Part shown: positions 39,681 to 46,981 of the stretch, one piece after another
How positions within the stretch are numbered: the stretch's first letter is position 1
Layout of the letters: each line of letters opens with the position of its first letter
Source: Acidobacteriota bacterium
GTDB lineage: Bacteria; Acidobacteriota; Terriglobia; Acidiferrales; UBA7541
Direction: 5' to 3'
NCBI GenBank assembly: GCA_021818865.1
Contig: JAKASX010000017.1
Location: 1-46,981 of the forward strand
Length of the DNA stretch: 46,981 bases
Notes under the pieces: model-generated
What the model was told of the DNA's origin: nothing
The model's input: only the letters and a program-made list of their open reading frames with translations
Database searches by the model: none
Made by a program: the position numbers and the translations under genes

Positions 39681-41831
39681 TCATCTCCCTCCGCCCCAGC
39701 TATAGCGCAGTCCCACGCGATACGACACCGCGAGCGCCGGATAACCGAGCACGATTTGGTAGCGACGGTCGAACACATTGTCCACGCGCGCGTAGCTGCT
39801 CAGCCCGTTGCCCAGGCGCCAACTGGCGCCGAGGTTCACGATGAAATAGCTCGGCACGCTCGTCAATCCGAGTCCCAGGAAATCGCTGTCTGTTCGCCGG
39901 CCCACGTATTGCGCTTCGGCGTTCCAGTTCGTGCGTCCCACGGAAACGTTTGCCACCACGTTTGCAGCGTTCAGCGGACGCAAGAACAGCCGGTTGCCGG
40001 GCAATTCGGTGGGATCGGTCGCATTGGGGCTTCGTAAGACGAGCGTATTGTCGTAAGTGTAGTTCGCGTCGACGAGGAGCCAATGCGCCGGCTGCGATTC
40101 CACTCTCGCATTCGCCCCATAGGCGCGCGAGCGGTCCGTATTGAAGAACGTTCCCGTCCCATACGGGCAGGCCGAAGTGATCGAGCCGAAGCCGAAACTC
40201 ACGATGTCGTAGAACTCGTTGCGAAAGCCGTTGAGGCTAACGTGCACGCGGTCGGCCGCAAGCGTTTGATCCACGCCAGCGTCGAGCGTTTGGCTGCGCT
40301 CGGGCCGCAGCAGGGGATTACCGGGAAAACAGGGATCGTTCGAAAACGTATCGAGAAACGACGGCGCCTTGATGCCCCAACCGTAAGAGGCATACGCGCG
40401 CGTCGGGCCCCATTCGCGGCCGCCTTCGCGCAGCGCGTAGGAAAGGCCCATGCGCGGCACCACGCGCGTGCCGAAGCTGGCGTTGGCGTCGGCGCGAGCG
40501 CCAAGGACGGCGGTCAGCCGGCGCGTCGCCTGCACTTCGGCCTCGAAATAGCCGGCTTGGTTATTGCGCCGCGCGTGGACGCCGCCAAAATAGCCGTTTT
40601 CAATCTCGTATTCGTACCCGGCAGTCAGCGCGCCATCGCCGAAGAGGTAACTCGATTGCTCTTCGAAATCGAGCCGATTGTATTCGTTCCGCGTGGTGTA
40701 GATGGGCGGATCGGCGTAGGTTTCTCCCAGATAGGATTCGGCGGCGTCCAGATGGTGGTGCCAACGGCTTCCCGTCTGGAAGTCCCAGGCCAGATTCGCG
40801 GAAACGTCTTTCAGTGCGTCGTGCTGGTTCTGGTCGTAGGGCAAAAAAAGCGTTTGGCCGGCCACGCCGGCGTCGCTCGCGCTCGAGCGAGCGGCCAGGC
40901 GCAGGGTATCGGTCGGCGAGAAATGCCAGCCGAAATCGCCGGAAAGCGAATTGTCGCGGTAACGATCGTTCGGTCCCTGCCCCTGTGTTTCAAAGGACGC
41001 GATTCCCGCCGAATAATCCAGTTTCCCCGCGAGTCCGCTCAGGTTCGCGCCGGCATGCCAGGTGGAAAACTTGCCGCCGTCGGCGAACAGGTTGATACGC
41101 GGGCGCCGCGTCGTGCCGCGGCGCGTCAAAATCTGGATCACGCCGCTCATCGCGTCCGAGCCGAAAAGCGCGCTCGCGGCTCCGTGCACCACTTCCACTT
41201 TTTCCACGTTATCGAGCGTGAAATTCGAGAAATCCACCGCGCCGCCCGGCTCGTTCACCGGCGAGCCGTCCACGAGCACCTTGGTGAAATTGGAATTTCC
41301 GCCATCGAGGAAAAGAGACGTCGCGCCGCCCATCGGCCCAAGCTGCGAAATCGAGACGCCGGCAAGCGACGTGAGGAGCGGTGCGAGCCACGCATCGTGC
41401 CGCTGCTCGATTTCCTGCCGCGTGACCACGTCCACCGGCCCGACCGTGTCGGAAACGGGCACCGGTTCGGCTTCGGCTGTCACCGTCACCGTCGAAGCGA
41501 GCGGCCGCAGCGCCAGCCGTAAGTTCCAGACCATCCGCTGCCCTGCGGCGACCTCGATTCTTCGCTCGACCGGGGCGAAAGACGGATCGCTGATGCGAAC
41601 CAGATAGCGTCCAGCCGGAAGTCTCAGCGTGTACCGGCCGTCCGCCGAGGAAACGGCGCGATAGCTTAGCCCACGCGCGTCACCGCTGGCGACGATTGCC
41701 GCTCCGGCGATTGGCGCGCCGCTCGGATCGGCCAAAATTCCGGTGAGGCGCGCGGAACGCGCCGCGGCAAATATCGAAAATGGGAAGGAAAGCAGCAAAA
41801 GGAAGAAAACTGCCGGGCGTCGAACCAGCAT
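39681..41831 (-). CDS. btuB: BtuB-like TonB-dependent receptor for cobalamin
   Basis: 716 residues from ATG 41831, GAGGAGG ahead. A signal peptide (FFLLLLSFPFSIFAAARS) is followed by a carboxypeptidase-regulatory-like domain (about 27-105: RLTGILADPSGAPIAGAAI, GRYTLRLPAGRYLVRI), a feature not present in enteric BtuB. The plug (about 115-235) has PVDVVTRQEIEQ, LFLDGGNSNFTKVLVDGSPV and VEKVEVVHGAASALFGSDAM. A barrel follows to the C-terminus (YRVGLRYSWGGGR). The cobalamin assignment rests on the riboswitch directly upstream and on the btuDCF operon next to it; by sequence alone it is a BtuB/CirA-type receptor. Confidence 0.87.
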   Translation of the reverse strand: MLVRRPAVFFLLLLSFPFSIFAAARSARLTGILADPSGAPIAGAAIVASGDARGLSYRAVSSADGRYTLRLPAGRYLVRISDPSFAPVERRIEVAAGQRMVWNLRLALRPLASTVTVTAEAEPVPVSDTVGPVDVVTRQEIEQRHDAWLAPLLTSLAGVSISQLGPMGGATSLFLDGGNSNFTKVLVDGSPVNEPGGAVDFSNFTLDNVEKVEVVHGAASALFGSDAMSGVIQILTRRGTTRRPRINLFADGGKFSTWHAGANLSGLAGKLDYSAGIASFETQGQGPNDRYRDNSLSGDFGWHFSPTDTLRLAARSSASDAGVAGQTLFLPYDQNQHDALKDVSANLAWDFQTGSRWHHHLDAAESYLGETYADPPIYTTRNEYNRLDFEEQSSYLFGDGALTAGYEYEIENGYFGGVHARRNNQAGYFEAEVQATRRLTAVLGARADANASFGTRVVPRMGLSYALREGGREWGPTRAYASYGWGIKAPSFLDTFSNDPCFPGNPLLRPERSQTLDAGVDQTLAADRVHVSLNGFRNEFYDIVSFGFGSITSACPYGTGTFFNTDRSRAYGANARVESQPAHWLLVDANYTYDNTLVLRSPNATDPTELPGNRLFLRPLNAANVVANVSVGRTNWNAEAQYVGRRTDSDFLGLGLTSVPSYFIVNLGASWRLGNGLSSYARVDNVFDRRYQIVLGYPALAVSYRVGLRYSWGGGR

Positions 41832-41925
41832 CGCGATCCTCCTCTCTCGCCCGCGCGAGAGTTGAAGGTTGTTCCGGCGTACCGATGGCCCAACGGGCTA
41901 CTGGCTTTCGCCGGAATGGGGGCTT

Positions 41926-42100
41926 CGCCGGTCTCCTGGCTTGGCGGCGTGTTCCTGCCGAAGTGCCTTCCCGGCTCAAGGGAGCCAGTGGCGCTTCGCA
42001 CGTTCGCGTATCGCCTTACAGTCGCGCGGCGGCGACGGCATTGCACCGTCTTCCCGTGCACGAAGCTCCGGGTGAATGAGACGACGCTCGGTGCCGGAAC
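41926..42100 (-). ncRNA. Cobalamin riboswitch upstream of the btuB-like gene
   Basis: The minus strand shows the aptamer core in order: GGGAAGACGGTGCAATGCCG, GCGCGACTGTAAGGCG, GCCACTGG, a hairpin (CTCCCTTGAG), GGGAAGGC and the B12-box end GCCAGGAGACCGGC (to 41926). A -10 box TATAAA lies at 42158-42153. Between aptamer and gene, TTCCGGCG can pair with CGCCGGAA. A second hairpin, CTCTCGC/GCGAGAG (about 41840-41858), abuts the ribosome site GAGGAGG. This suggests control of translation initiation; no T-run terminator is present. Cobalamin would repress the receptor. Confidence 0.92.
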
Positions 42101-42164: not shown

Positions 42165-43028
42165 CTATTCCGCTCTCACCTCCAACAAAATTCTGGGCCG
42201 GCCGCTTGCGCCCGGTTCGACGCGCAGCGGCGCGGCAAACACTTCGCGCAGCACCGCTTCCTGGAAGACTTCGCTTGGTTTTCCCGTACCCAACGCGCGG
42301 CCGCGGTGCATGAGCACCACCTGATCGGCGAATTCGGCAGCCAGCCCAAGTTCGTGCGTCACCACGACGATCGTCGCGCGACCGCTGGCGGCGAGCGCGG
42401 CCAGTTGCCGCAGCAATTCCACCTGGCCGCCGATATCGAGGTGCAGCGTCGGCTCGTCGAGCAGGAGCAGCAGCGGCTGCTGCGCCAGGGCCCGCGCCAG
42501 CACCACGCGCTGCTTTTCGCCGCCGGAAATTTCGTGCATCCAGCGCTCCGCCAGGTGCGCGCCGCCCACCTGTTCGAGCGCTCTCATGGCCAGTCCCAGA
42601 TCGTCGGTGGAGGGAAAATGCAGCCGCCGGCTGTAGGGATAGCGTCCCTGCAAAACGTATTCGACCGCGCTCATCGGGAATACGAGCGGGCTTTCCTGCT
42701 GCACCACCGCGATTCGCTGCGCGCGCGTTCGTGCGTCCAGCCGGTCCAGCGCGACGCCGTCCAGCTCCACGTGCCCGGCGAGCGGCCGCAGAAGGCCGGA
42801 AAGCAGGCGCAGCAGCGTGGTTTTGCCGCTGGCGTTCGGCCCGACGATCATCAGCAGCTCGCCACGCCGCGCGCGGAAGCTCACCGGCTCCAGCGTGAAG
42901 CGCGGCGCTTCGCTGCGGCCGGCATGATAGGCGTAGCTCAGGTGCTCGACGAGCAACCGCGGCGGCTCGCCAGGCGTCACCGCCGGCGTTGTGCCCGCAT
43001 TCGGCAGCGGCGTTGCCGTCTCGCTCAT
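42165..43028 (-). CDS. btuD: ABC transporter ATP-binding protein for cobalamin (BtuD-like)
   Basis: 287 residues from ATG 43028, which overlaps the btuC stop by four bases (ATGA). Motifs: Walker A GPNASGKTT, Q-loop VVQQESPLV, signature ISGGEKQRVVLARAL, Walker B LLLLLDEPTLHLD and switch His in VVTHELG. The family is the FecE/BtuD group of iron-siderophore/haem/B12 importers. The B12 assignment comes from the riboswitches at both ends of the locus. It is the last gene of btuF-btuC-btuD; btuB follows with its own promoter and riboswitch. Confidence 0.92.
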   Translation of the reverse strand: MSETATPLPNAGTTPAVTPGEPPRLLVEHLSYAYHAGRSEAPRFTLEPVSFRARRGELLMIVGPNASGKTTLLRLLSGLLRPLAGHVELDGVALDRLDARTRAQRIAVVQQESPLVFPMSAVEYVLQGRYPYSRRLHFPSTDDLGLAMRALEQVGGAHLAERWMHEISGGEKQRVVLARALAQQPLLLLLDEPTLHLDIGGQVELLRQLAALAASGRATIVVVTHELGLAAEFADQVVLMHRGRALGTGKPSEVFQEAVLREVFAAPLRVEPGASGRPRILLEVRAE

Positions 43029-44050
43029 CCCATCTTCCTTCGCAGCAGATAAATGAAAACCGGCGCGCCCGCAATCGCCGTCATCGCGCCCACCGGCAAT
43101 TCCGTCGGCGCGATCACCGTCCGCGCCAGCGTATCGGCGATGATCAGCGCGATAGCGCCACCAAGCGCCGACGCCGGAATCAGCAGCCGGTAATCGGAGC
43201 CGAACAGCATTCGCATCACGTGTGGCACCAGCAGCCCGATGTAACCGATCGCCCCGCTCACCGAAACCGCCAGCGCCGTGAGCAGCGATCCGGCCAGATA
43301 CACCACCAGCTTCACCCGGCTCACGTTCACGCCCAAATGCATCGCTTCCTGTTCGCCGGCGGCCAGCAGGTTCAAATCGGCCGCCGTGGTGTAAACGCCG
43401 CCGATCGTCATCCACGCCACCAGCATCAGCCAGCCCGTTCGCATCGGCAACGGCGACGACAAATCGCCCATCAGCCAGAACGCCATTCCGCGCAGGTCGC
43501 GTCCCGGCAGCGAAGCCATCAGGAACATGATCACCGCCGAAAAAAACGACGCGGTGATGATTCCCGCGAGCAGCAGCGTGAAGCTATCAAGCTGGCCGTG
43601 CCTGCGGCCCAGAAAATAGACCGCACCGACCGTCAGCAATGCACCGGCAAACGCGGCCGCCATCGTGCCGATCGTCGTTCGCGGCTCGACGAGGAGGGCC
43701 AGAATCGCCCCCAGCGCGGCGCCGCTCGAAACACCCAGCACGTAGGGATCGGCCAGCGGATTTCGCAAGAGCGCCTGAAATCCCGCTCCCGCCACGGAAA
43801 GCGACGCGCCCACCAGCAGCGCCAGCAGCACGCGCGGCAGCCGCAAATCCAGCACGATCATCCGGCAATCGGCCGTCATGTGGGCTGTATTGCCGGTGGC
43901 GGCTTCCACCAGACACGCGCCCACTTGCGGCGTCGAAATCGAAACGGCGCCCAGCCGCAGCGAAATGACGGCGACCACGAGCAGAAGCAGCGCCAGCAGC
44001 AACGTCACTCCGATTACTCTGCGTGAAGTCAGCGGTTTCGACGGGCTCAC
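43025..44050 (-). CDS. btuC: Cobalamin ABC transporter permease (BtuC-like, FecCD family)
   Basis: 341 residues from GTG 44050, overlapping the btuF stop (GTGA). About ten membrane helices, typical of FecCD permeases. Family segments are LRLPRVLLALLVGASLSVAG, GAGFQALLRNPLADPYVLGV, GAALGAILALL, GAIGYIGLLVPHVMRMLFG and GAIALIIADTLARTV, ending in PVFIYLLRRKMG. It forms the inner-membrane channel with BtuD and receives cobalamin from BtuF. Its four-base overlaps on both sides indicate translational coupling. Confidence 0.93.
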   Translation of the reverse strand: MSPSKPLTSRRVIGVTLLLALLLLVVAVISLRLGAVSISTPQVGACLVEAATGNTAHMTADCRMIVLDLRLPRVLLALLVGASLSVAGAGFQALLRNPLADPYVLGVSSGAALGAILALLVEPRTTIGTMAAAFAGALLTVGAVYFLGRRHGQLDSFTLLLAGIITASFFSAVIMFLMASLPGRDLRGMAFWLMGDLSSPLPMRTGWLMLVAWMTIGGVYTTAADLNLLAAGEQEAMHLGVNVSRVKLVVYLAGSLLTALAVSVSGAIGYIGLLVPHVMRMLFGSDYRLLIPASALGGAIALIIADTLARTVIAPTELPVGAMTAIAGAPVFIYLLRRKMG

Positions 44051-45225
44051 GATTGCGCCCTCGTCTGCGCCGGTTTCGGCGCGCTGGCTGCCGGCTGTGA
44101 AAACGCGCGCGGATGCAGCGCGCGCGCCAGTTTCTCGATCGCGCCGATGAGCGGAGGGCTCGGCCGGTTGATGGCGTCGCTGACCACCAGGATGTGGCCG
44201 TCCTTTACGGCTTTAAGGTCTCGCCAGCCCGCGCGGCGCTCGAGCGAGCGTGCGATTTCCGCGGGCGTGCCCGCGCTCGAAGCGGGAAAAATCAGGTATT
44301 GCGGCTGCTTGGCCAGAACCTCCTCCAGGCTGATGTGCGGCCAATCCTCGCTTACGCTCACCACCGATTTCGCTCCCGCCCACCGCAGCGCATCGGCCAG
44401 AAAGGTGTTGCGCCCCGTGGTAATCAGCGGATCCTCCCAAACGACGAAAAACACGCTTTTGGGCGGATGCGCCTCAAGGCGCGCGCGCAGCGCCTCGAGC
44501 CGCGCCTCGAGCCGCGCCGCCAGCGCTTCGCCCGCCGCTTTTTCGCCGATCACCGACCCGATTTTCCGCACCGAGCGAATCATGCCCTGAACCGTGTGGG
44601 CGTCGGTGGCGTAAACGGGAATGTCGAGCCGTTCGAGCGAATAGACCGTTTCCCAGCGGTTGATCGAACCGTCCACGAGCACCAGATTCGGCTGCAGCGC
44701 CGCAATTCGTTCCAGGCTCGGCTCGACCGGCTCACCCACGCTTTCGACGTGCGGCTTGCCCGGCGGGATTTCGCTGAAATCGGTGATGCCGGCGATTTTT
44801 TTCGCCGCGCCCAGCGCGTAGAGGATGTCGGTGTCGTTTGGCGCGAGCGAAACGATGCGCGTTACCCTGGCCGGAACGGTCACCCTGCGGCCGGCTTCAT
44901 CCGTCACCGTGCGCGTCGCCGGTTTCGTTTGCCGTGCAGCTTGGAAAGCCGCAAGCGCCGTGCGAACTCCGTGGCTCGCCGCGTGCTGGGGGCTTGCCTG
45001 CGCGCTCCTCTCCCCTGTAAAAGCTGTCATCCTGAGGCCGAACGCAAAAGCCAAACGCACTTTGCCAATGTTCAGCGGCCGAAGGATCTGCCTTTCTTGG
45101 TGGCTCGCGACGAATTTTGCGGATTGGAGCACAGCTGCCAGACCGAGCGCCGACACCAGGAGCGGAAGAGCCGCGAGCAGCGGCGCACGGCGCTCGAACG
45201 CGCGTCTTGTTTTTTCCGGCAACAA
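44047..45225 (-). CDS. btuF: Periplasmic cobalamin-binding protein (BtuF-like)
   Basis: 392 residues if TTG 45225 is used (another TTG follows at 45222). The start is uncertain because it sits in the U-tract of an intrinsic terminator and no ribosome site precedes it. Signal-like helix: LLAALPLLVSALGLAAVL (16-33). Residues about 34-102 do not belong to the fold and include repeat-derived sequence (42-67). The BtuF fold starts near TRTVTDEAGRRVTVPARVTR and has RIVSLAPNDTDILYALGA, GEPVEPSLERIAALQPNLVL and SVFFVVWEDPLITTGRNTFL. It carries cobalamin to BtuCD; its product feeds the same pathway as the receptor downstream. Confidence 0.87.
   Translation of the reverse strand: MLPEKTRRAFERRAPLLAALPLLVSALGLAAVLQSAKFVASHQERQILRPLNIGKVRLAFAFGLRMTAFTGERSAQASPQHAASHGVRTALAAFQAARQTKPATRTVTDEAGRRVTVPARVTRIVSLAPNDTDILYALGAAKKIAGITDFSEIPPGKPHVESVGEPVEPSLERIAALQPNLVLVDGSINRWETVYSLERLDIPVYATDAHTVQGMIRSVRKIGSVIGEKAAGEALAARLEARLEALRARLEAHPPKSVFFVVWEDPLITTGRNTFLADALRWAGAKSVVSVSEDWPHISLEEVLAKQPQYLIFPASSAGTPAEIARSLERRAGWRDLKAVKDGHILVVSDAINRPSPPLIGAIEKLARALHPRAFSQPAASAPKPAQTRAQS
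45025..45100. repeat. Interspersed repeat unit inside btuF
   Basis: TGTCATCCTGAGGC (45025-45038) opens and GCGGCCGAAGGATCTGC (45075-45091) closes the unit, the same ends as the repeat at 19514-19553. On the minus strand it is read in frame as residues about 42-67 of BtuF (QERQILRP...FGLRM), between signal helix and binding domain. Confidence 0.65.
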
Positions 45226-45252
45226 AAAAGCCCCGGCGGACGGAGCGGGGCT
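45224..45252 (-). terminator. Intrinsic terminator of the btuF riboswitch
   Basis: On the minus strand AGCCCCG (45252-45246) and CGGGGCT (45235-45229) form a seven-base-pair GC-rich stem around a ten-base loop, followed at once by TTTTTT (45229-45224). It is placed between the cobalamin aptamer and btuF, as expected of a transcription-attenuating expression platform. GGAGTGTGGCTCC just upstream may be an alternative, antiterminating partner. Confidence 0.8.
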
Positions 45253-45374
45253 CTGGGAGCCACACTCCTGGCCGCGAGAGTGTCAGCTTTCTCCGATTCG
45301 GGCAGGTTTCCTGACTGACGGCCTTCCGCGCGTGGCGGAACGTGGAAGCTATTGCGCTACCTCATCTCTTGTAG

Positions 45375-45440
45375 GGCACGGCTCGAGCCGTGCCGCAAAG
45401 CCGGCCAAATATCGGGGGCTTAAGCCCCTGAGGGCCGGCC
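45375..45440. repeat. Nested palindromes inside the btuF riboswitch
   Basis: A perfect 20-base palindrome GGCACGGCTCGAGCCGTGCC (45375-45394). Next to it, GCCGGCC (45400-45406) and GGCCGGC (45433-45439) enclose GGGGCTTAAGCCCC (45415-45428), itself a perfect palindrome. Such palindromes resemble short dispersed repeats seen in other GC-rich bacterial genomes. Confidence 0.75.
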
Positions 45441-45512
45441 GAAGAGGTCACGCGACAACTCCAAGGGTGTTTCCGGCTCGCGTTTTTCTATCCGTCACGC
45501 AACGCCCCCCTT

Positions 45513-45578
45513 GGTCATTCCGAGCGCAGCGCCTGCCCGCCGGTCTCTCGGCGGGAGGAATCCGCTTTCATTCTGCGC
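45513..45578. repeat. Interspersed repeat unit inside the btuF riboswitch
   Basis: GGTCATTCCGAGCGCAGCG opens the unit and GGAGGAATCCGCTTTC closes it, with an internal hairpin CCCGCC/GGCGGG (about 45537-45556). The plan (TCATYC-GAG, variable hairpin, GAAGGATC or GAGGAATC) matches the units at 19514-19553 and 45025-45100. Confidence 0.6.
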
Positions 45579-45747
45579 TGCGTGGGCGCTGCTGACGCGT
45601 CGAGCGGCCCTTCCGGTCGCCGTTCTACGCGGCTTCCGTGGGCGTCCCTTCATCGGGACGGGAAACACCGGCCGATCACAGTGGCGGGACCGCGGCCGAT
45701 TCGCACGGCCTTCCCTTCACCCGATCCGGCTGCTTGTTTCAAATCGA

Positions 45748-45777
45748 AGTGTAGGCGCGCGGCCGAGCCGGTGTCAA
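45748..45777 (-). promoter_or_regulatory. sigma70-type promoter of the btuFCD leader
   Basis: On the minus strand TTGACA (45777-45772) is followed after 18 nt by TACACT (45753-45748). The start would be at about 45741, directly upstream of the 5' half of the cobalamin aptamer, so the leader RNA is about 515 nt long. Confidence 0.7.
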
Positions 45778-45990
45778 TCTGGACGCGGGAAAGCATATAC
45801 AGCCGCGGAAAAGGGACAACCCCCTTGCTCCTTCGCCTTGTATTCGCGCGCCCAAATTTGGTGCAGGACTGCTCGCAGCGGATGGGCGGCTGGCACGTTT
45901 TGTTGGTGCGCGGGTGTGTGCAACGCGAGCGGGGTGTAAGCGTGGGTGCAGACTTGCTTGGAACCCCAGCCCGGGTTAGCTCGTGAATCG
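45778..45990. other. Intergenic region, no gene seen
   Basis: This lies between the riboswitch promoter and the end of the nuclease-like gene. Open frames on the plus strand across 45511-45986 overlap the riboswitch and repeats and have no recognisable protein character. Confidence 0.4.
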
Positions 45991-46587
45991 TTAGAGGCCG
46001 AGCCGGGTAGGTAGCTCCGGCCTGCCGAGGTTCTCTACGAATGGCCGCACATCCGTGTTGTCGCGCAGGTGAAACTCACATTTGAGGTTGTACCTGTCAG
46101 GGTGAAAATCGTAAATGTGCCAGCATTCCCCATCGGTAACCGCTCCGCACACGGCTGGCTCGTTGTCTACCGGGACCACCAATTTTGGCCCTCCGAATCG
46201 CCCCGCGAAGTGTTCACGCACGTACCCGCGCAGCTCATCAAGAGCGTCTCCGCGAAGGTTCGTCTCTGGCCAGCCCACCATCTTGACTTCCACAATGGCC
46301 ACCCTCTTGTTTGTACCGTTGCGGTTCTTGCCAAACAACTCGTAGTCTGGGAACTTCCCGCGCTTTGCACGGTCCACTTGGTCATGGCAAAGCGTCTCCC
46401 AGCCAAGTCCTCTTAGTATCGGCTCGACGAATATCGCTTGCGTGTCCACTTCGAACGCACCTTGACGCTCACCCGTAAGGCACGCGGCCACGGCTGAATG
46501 ACTTGTGCGACAGTTTTTAACCAGCGTCGGGTCTTTCAGCCATCCCAAGCGAAAGACTTCGTTGCTAAATCCGTAATCAATGTCCAT
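45991..46587 (-). CDS. Hypothetical protein with PD-(D/E)XK nuclease-like motif
   Basis: 198 residues from ATG 46587. The central part reads FVEPILRGLGWETL, FPDYELFG and, after a short gap, KRVAIVEVKMVGWPE. An Asp on one strand and Glu-x-Lys on the next (PD...EVK) is the PD-(D/E)XK nuclease core, and the preceding context resembles the N-terminal nuclease region of type I restriction R subunits and related stand-alone proteins. The rest (AVTDGECWHIYDF, DVRPFVENL) also fits that group. No methylase or specificity subunit is adjacent in the window. Its codon use is less GC-skewed than neighbouring genes, which may mean later acquisition. Confidence 0.65.
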   Translation of the reverse strand: MDIDYGFSNEVFRLGWLKDPTLVKNCRTSHSAVAACLTGERQGAFEVDTQAIFVEPILRGLGWETLCHDQVDRAKRGKFPDYELFGKNRNGTNKRVAIVEVKMVGWPETNLRGDALDELRGYVREHFAGRFGGPKLVVPVDNEPAVCGAVTDGECWHIYDFHPDRYNLKCEFHLRDNTDVRPFVENLGRPELPTRLGL

Positions 46588-46981
46588 CGCACTTCGAGCC
46601 GGCCACGTGCCGCGGGCGCGCTGCCGCCAGCAGCAGCATTGATCGGCGTCGGGAAACGCTCCGACGACCCGCGTTCTTCGTGGTACTTCCTGTAGCGACC
46701 GCTCCAGCGGGTTGTTCGTTCGCAGGCAGCGCCAGTGCCGGTGCCCCGCGGAAGCCCGTAGGAGTAAAGCGTCTCCTCGCCCGAGGCAGCGTTGGGGTGA
46801 TGGGCGTCACAGACACGAGATGCGAGTCTGGGTTATGCTGGGAGTGGTTGCAAGGGTGGGACGTTCCGCGCAAAAGCGCCTTGCGGCCTGCAAAGAGGGG
46901 GACAATTACGGTCAAGCGCGCGTTCTGAATGGAGCGGTCAGCTCTTCCGCGCCGCGACAGCGAATAGGGACCGTCGGGATC
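46588..46981. other. Terminal non-coding stretch, no gene seen
   Basis: Two short overlapping open frames on opposite strands occur here, but both are Arg/Ala/Pro/Thr-rich, lack ribosome sites and resemble no protein I know. The segment may contain repeat remnants (CGACCGCTCCAGCGGG near 46698). Confidence 0.4.

Follow-up and report, generated by a model that had tools for sequence, protein, structure and literature searches.

The minus strand of the window (the whole stretch of 46,981 nucleotides analysed here) carries, from 45777 to 45225, a single cobalamin riboswitch composed of a promoter, a split aptamer, a P13-like hairpin and a terminator, followed by a btuF-btuC-btuD operon. This leader is very probably a cis-regulatory cobalamin riboswitch attenuating btuFCD, whose optional arm has been enlarged by two tolerated, self-closing dispersed elements, here called A and B. 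We infer that the leader binds cobalamin and still regulates the operon in cells, and likewise infer the direction of control, which is likely that of a standard B12 off-switch, judging from the family and the terminator. The inserts are apparently tolerated, with no sign of domestication in the sequences compared. The window corresponds to contig C136 in the genome (G000; 3.97 Mb, 165 contigs) of an uncultured acidobacterium, whose nearest named relative is the Acidobacteria MAG YF1.bin127.

A single split aptamer precedes B12-uptake genes

The genes 3' of the leader are of the B12-uptake type, with Pfam domain matches to btuF-, btuC- and btuD-like products (Table 1). A scan for BtuF over genome contigs returned only a sister species with a separate assembly (G003; JAKAOH010000016.1) and a distant Chloroflexota locus, and plasmid records gave short partial matches only, mostly from Streptomyces. 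An earlier note on this DNA had described both conserved halves of a cobalamin aptamer in the right order, with a promoter before and an intrinsic terminator after, and all three claims hold: the promoter and the terminator are in place, and the 3' core AGTCAGGAAACCTGCCCGA (45316-45298) follows the 5' core GGGAA...CCCGCCACTGTGATCGGCC in the correct order.

Table 1 Features of the split riboswitch leader and of the genes associated with it
Feature	Position	Strand	Evidence or remark
Sigma-70-type promoter TTGACA-18-TACACT	45748..45777	-	Sole promoter-like site in 44900-46000; 0.1 expected in shuffles
5' half of aptamer (P1 5' strand, GGGAA, P4/P5, CCCGCCACTGTGATCGGCC)	45664..45726	-	Profile R2, 5e-13; RF00174; 0 differences from G003
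Peripheral arm, 5' side: P7-like 5' strand GGTGTTTCC, P8-like hairpin CGTCCC..GGGACG (45660-45643), GCCCACGG..CCGGAAGGGCC hairpin, start of stem carrying element B	45597..45669	-	Same domain in G004 without large inserts; P7-like GGTGTTTCC / GGAAACACC predicted pairing probability 1.0
Element B, TCATTCCGAG / GATTCCTC..CGGAATGAC dispersed repeat	45596-45495	-	Apical loop of peripheral stem, closed by GCAGCGCCC/GGGCGTTGC
Peripheral arm, 3' side, ending in P7-like 3' strand GGAAACACC (45474-45466)	45466..45494	-	0 differences from G003
Element A, MITE-like, 122 nt, palindromes AGGGGCTTAAGCCCC and GGCACGGCTCGAGCCGTGCC	45464-45343	-	Inserted at helix junction
TTCCGC..GCGGAA hairpin, then P6 3' strand (GGCC)	45324..45340	-	Common to genus members having the leader; pairing probability 0.75-1.0
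B12 box AGTCAGGAAACC (45316-45305) and P1 3' strand GCCCGAATCGG	45293..45316	-	Family alignment, R2 3' match, P1 permutation test
P13-like hairpin CACTC..GAGTG, loop TCGCG	45258..45287	-	Family alignment; sequence reading
Intrinsic terminator GCCCCG..CGGGGCTTTTTT, hairpin and T6 tract	45225..45251	-	Expression platform; kept in nearly all family leaders
btuF-like periplasmic binding protein	44047..45225	-	Peripla_BP_2, E 3e-34
btuC-like permease	43025..44050	-	FecCD, E 7e-90
btuD-like ABC ATPase	42165..43040 (approximate start)	-	ABC_tran, E 2e-31
Second, ordinary cobalamin riboswitch	41909..42080	-	90.6 bits; upstream of TonB receptor gene
TonB receptor, downstream of second riboswitch	39681-41831		TonB_dep_Rec_b-barrel

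The comparison set consisted of 30 btuF leaders belonging to the family and the order, with this genus contributing four. A profile of 16 btuF leaders from other genera and none from this genus (R2, model length 142) matches the window twice and collinearly, at 45726-45664 (model 8-70, 5e-13) and at 45345-45253 (model 39-135, 7e-9), and the search gave nothing else of note in 45150-45600. The earlier note had allowed for the halves failing to score as one hit; both match this one family profile in order. It had also proposed RF00174 as a check, and this model gives a match at 45715-45615 (33.9 bits against a gathering score of 31.5) in which the 5' half is real but the 3' half is spurious, being taken from inside the arm, so that RF00174 by itself does not bridge the inserts. 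The leader of an insert-light congener (G004) gives a single full RF00174 match (1-189, 43.9 bits), and comparison of the orthologous btuF leaders, likewise proposed earlier, uncovered none with two complete riboswitches at this site.

RNAalifold, run on the core alignment of the 30 leaders, recovered P3, P4 and P13 and missed P1, because the register of P1 shifts between genera; we therefore compared the pairing of P1 strands with their own and with swapped partners. Across the 30 leaders the strands pair better with their own partner, whose energy was reached in 0 of 5000 permutations. The collinear R2 halves, the own-partner pairing of P1 and the full-length match in G004 together indicate that the window leader is one split aptamer. 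The idea of two riboswitches was rejected on the collinearity of the halves and on the lack of any relative with two complete copies here. Read from the sequence, the P13-like loop TCGCG could pair with the aptamer loop TGCGA; this L5-L13 kissing pairing (UGCGA/UCGCG) would be weak, with 5 bp in the window of which one is G-U, and with a mismatch in G004, as judged by eye from the alignment.

Two dispersed elements enlarge the peripheral arm

The window has a gap of 372 nt between the 5' core CCCGCCACTGTGA and the B12 box, the second longest among the leaders compared, where the 26 leaders of other genera have 29-203 nt. Within the genus, G004 has 171 nt and the three remaining leaders have 370-376 nt. 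The earlier statement that the joining region is about ten times longer than usual is correct relative to the compact leaders (29-49 nt in 17 leaders) but not relative to the remaining leaders outside the genus, which span 65-203 nt. In the same way, the description of about 300 nt of repeats was right in that dispersed repeats interrupt the aptamer, but too generous in extent: only ~226 of the ~342 nt between the halves are dispersed repeat (elements A and B), and ~120 nt belong to a normal optional peripheral domain. This domain is present in G004 without the two elements, in agreement with the proposal that the insertion occupies an optional peripheral arm.

The TCATTCCGAG-type repeat and the two palindromes reported earlier are all present, but the palindromes are not separate, both lying within the single element A. 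Within the window, the GGCACGGCT..AGCCGTGCC palindrome is significant (1 found, 0 in shuffles) and TCATTCCGAG is not (5 matches at <=1 mismatch against 3.9 expected); the repeat status of both was settled by genome-wide copy number. A model of element A (R1, which includes the window copy) has 44 matches in the same genome; for G001-G003 the number is 27-57, and for G004 it is at least 115. Other blastn matches across the genome are independent of R1. The consensus of the element ends in terminal inverted repeats TAGAAGCTGTTGCAAAACC..GGTTTTGCAACAGCTTCTA, degenerate in the window copy, and its ends read TA..TA, a possible TA target-site duplication. In being 122 nt long, non-coding and multicopy, with imperfect terminal inverted repeats, element A is like MITEs; its inner palindrome doublet, which also occurs without the terminal repeats, is like the doublets of REP type (REPs, REPINs). 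A relative of element A (64 bits) is found between the leader and the btuF coding region of G004 (L053 697-819), so the region upstream of btuF has been hit repeatedly.

Copies of element B occur elsewhere in the same genome, on contigs C111 and C58. The pattern of this element has 8 matches in that genome and up to 101 in G008, and the reversed pattern has 0. Nested repeats were seen in G004 (L106, C74 49400-50100), where element B lies inside another palindromic element that itself lies inside element A.

The aptamer is conserved and the inserts drift

In the sister species G003 both elements are at the same sites, and the arrangement is ~94% identical. Comparison of G000 with G003 gives 0 substitutions over the 227 nt of aptamer and arm that lie outside the elements, and 23 substitutions over the 226 nt of elements A and B (Fisher P 6e-8 against aptamer and arm); flanks and inserts differ by ~10%. 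This comparison, which is based on a single species pair, argues for selection on the riboswitch with the inserts present, the inserts themselves drifting. At the level of sequence, conservation of the core beside drifting inserts is the strongest evidence that the leader would still be a riboswitch, and the cautious suggestion that function may be retained can be raised to very probably.

Two further congeners differ in their arms: the leader of G004 is without elements A and B, and that of G002 carries different palindrome-bearing inserts in three other loops. One of the G002 palindromes has 4 copies in that genome; for the rest, nothing beyond close variants or short blastn matches turned up elsewhere, which makes the G002 case weaker.

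Predicted folding suggests that self-closing inserts are tolerated

We propose that two non-autonomous dispersed palindromic elements have enlarged the optional P6-arm peripheral domain. B occupies the apical loop of one of its stems, and A the junction where the P7-like helix meets the hairpin that follows. Being self-complementary end to end, each of them would form its own closed RNA stem, so that the flanking riboswitch helices could still meet. The aptamer, the P13-like hairpin and the terminator could then act as usual: B12 binding would stabilise the aptamer together with its contact to the P13 loop, the terminator would form, and the transport genes would be turned off.

Folding was assessed by secondary-structure prediction at 37 C, without ligand, tertiary contacts or co-transcriptional folding. 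In the unconstrained fold of the leader, A and B form closed side domains, and the predicted pairing probabilities of P6 and P7 are 0.95 and 1.0 with the inserts as against 0.97 and 1.0 without them. When both inserts are dinucleotide-shuffled, 2% of 150 sequences keep P6 and P7, random window DNA keeps them in 5%, and none reach the native P6. Most of the damage comes from A, as shuffling it alone leaves both helices in 11%, compared with 91% for B alone. When 15 other copies of element A, taken from G004, are put into this site, 12 are predicted to leave both helices intact. Since the native and most foreign copies of A fit and shuffled ones mostly disrupt, tolerance seems to lie in the self-closing design, with no adaptation needed after insertion; in these predictions it looks like a general property of self-closing elements rather than an acquired function.

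With the terminator region included, the pairing of P1 is 0.13-0.38 (0 at one position), a low value that would fit a switch or a weak P1 alike. For the G002 leader, with its different, longer inserts, P7 is predicted at 0.97 and P6 at 0.11.

Alternative explanations

The earlier note had spoken of a riboswitch tolerating or domesticating repeats, and the first of these two words is the one that our data favour. Domesticated inserts could act through their stems as a delay, a pause or an RNase III site, or as a tuned spacer lengthening the decision window (~340 nt), and it is true that both species retain both elements with 2 indel columns only in 226 nt and that in both A and B are predicted to form their closing helices. 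We nevertheless consider domestication unlikely, as the elements diverge like the N-terminus of btuF (43 in 325; Fisher P 0.29). We looked within the elements for compensatory change, which would point to domestication, without finding it, 5 of 14 differing base pairs being kept and 9 broken or lost; also, most foreign copies of A are predicted to fit the site, G004 is without both elements and G002 has other inserts. A riboswitch broken by the insertions and now decaying, with btuF constitutive or silent, would explain why Rfam detects the leader only in part and why the gap is so long, but it is very unlikely given intact promoter hexamers, an intact terminator and the unchanged aptamer and arm amid diverged flanks and inserts.

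Another reading takes the whole long arm for a single inherited class-I peripheral domain whose likeness to repeats is superficial; its GCCCACGG..CCGGAAGGGCC module is indeed common to G004 and resembles a module of G006, G016 and G026. With several to tens of copies of A and B elsewhere in these genomes, and both missing from the G004 arm, we find this highly implausible. Hardly any credence is due to an assembly artefact joining two loci: another contig of the same genome, C148, is indeed identical to the window over 115 nt and breaks off within the 5' half of this riboswitch, but in the separately assembled G003 the same sites are occupied by both inserts, and the structure in the window is therefore not an assembly error. 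The end of this 42-kb contig (L050 1-147) places the riboswitch 5' half downstream of an Rce1-like (CAAX protease) gene, and the riboswitch is absent from the counterpart of that region in G003 (C106); the contig end may represent another copy of the leader, or else a variant between strains.

Relation to known systems

Our reading of two tolerated dispersed elements in one aptamer arm extends earlier work. In the account of Barrick and Breaker (2007; PMC2258182), long non-conserved stem-loops inserted at particular sites are tolerated by riboswitches, and a true match scores low with a covariance model when its insertion sits at an unusual position. The AdoCbl riboswitch of that study (RF00174) has the same core, B12 box and optional P8-P10-P11 domain as the window leader; the origin of its inserts is unspecified, whereas those of the window leader are recognisable dispersed mobile-type repeats with further copies in their own genome, and we compared selection on the core with that on the inserts. 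According to the passage of PMC2229807 that cites Ogata et al. (2002), Rickettsia palindromic elements of 105-146 bp are tolerated in RNase P RNA and tmRNA genes. Like A and B, these are self-complementary repeats in structured RNA genes, but the hosts named there are a ribozyme and a translational RNA rather than a riboswitch aptamer, and the repeats and the phylum are unrelated. Upstream of trp in pneumococcus, a BOX element separates two T boxes (Croucher et al. 2011, PMC3049150) in a leader whose parts are thought to fold independently and whose regulation is seemingly retained; it too is a dispersed repeat in a riboswitch leader, but it sits between two T boxes, whereas A and B are inside one aptamer. 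We searched the literature for repeats within riboswitch aptamers and came upon no case of a dispersed mobile-type repeat in an aptamer arm, although such a case may have escaped the search. Long insertions in riboswitches are known as such, and the novelty lies in tracing them to identifiable mobile repeats within the arm of an aptamer.

These elements provide an identifiable source for long non-conserved riboswitch stem-loops and a natural comparison series within one genus, running from two elements in G000 and G003 through other inserts in G002 to neither in G004. They also yield a testable rule, namely that self-closing repeats are tolerated inside structured RNA and composition-matched sequence is predicted not to be. 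More tentatively, the 'variable insertions' of riboswitches might often be fossil mobile palindromes, a generalisation that we offer as possible rather than probable: a self-closing repeat would enter a peripheral arm harmlessly, so arms would act as landing sites, and this lineage would have been caught in the act. In practical terms, Rfam under-scores such leaders, and the reported 3' boundary can be wrong.

Surroundings of the leader

In a congener with a 90%-complete genome (G001), an RF00174 match is absent and only weak relatives of BtuF are present; B12 uptake has possibly been lost, or the contig is missing. Between a transposase remnant and the promoter, the window contains a 198-aa ORF (45991-46587) for which no Pfam match was found and in which a PD-(D/E)XK-like EVK motif can be made out by eye. 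The remnant of a Mutator-family (IS256-type) transposase is recognisable 5' of the leader in G003 (L052 300-690, minus-strand orientation; PF00872), and a stretch of the window at 46577-46915 resembles it by eye, although in frame-shifted form.
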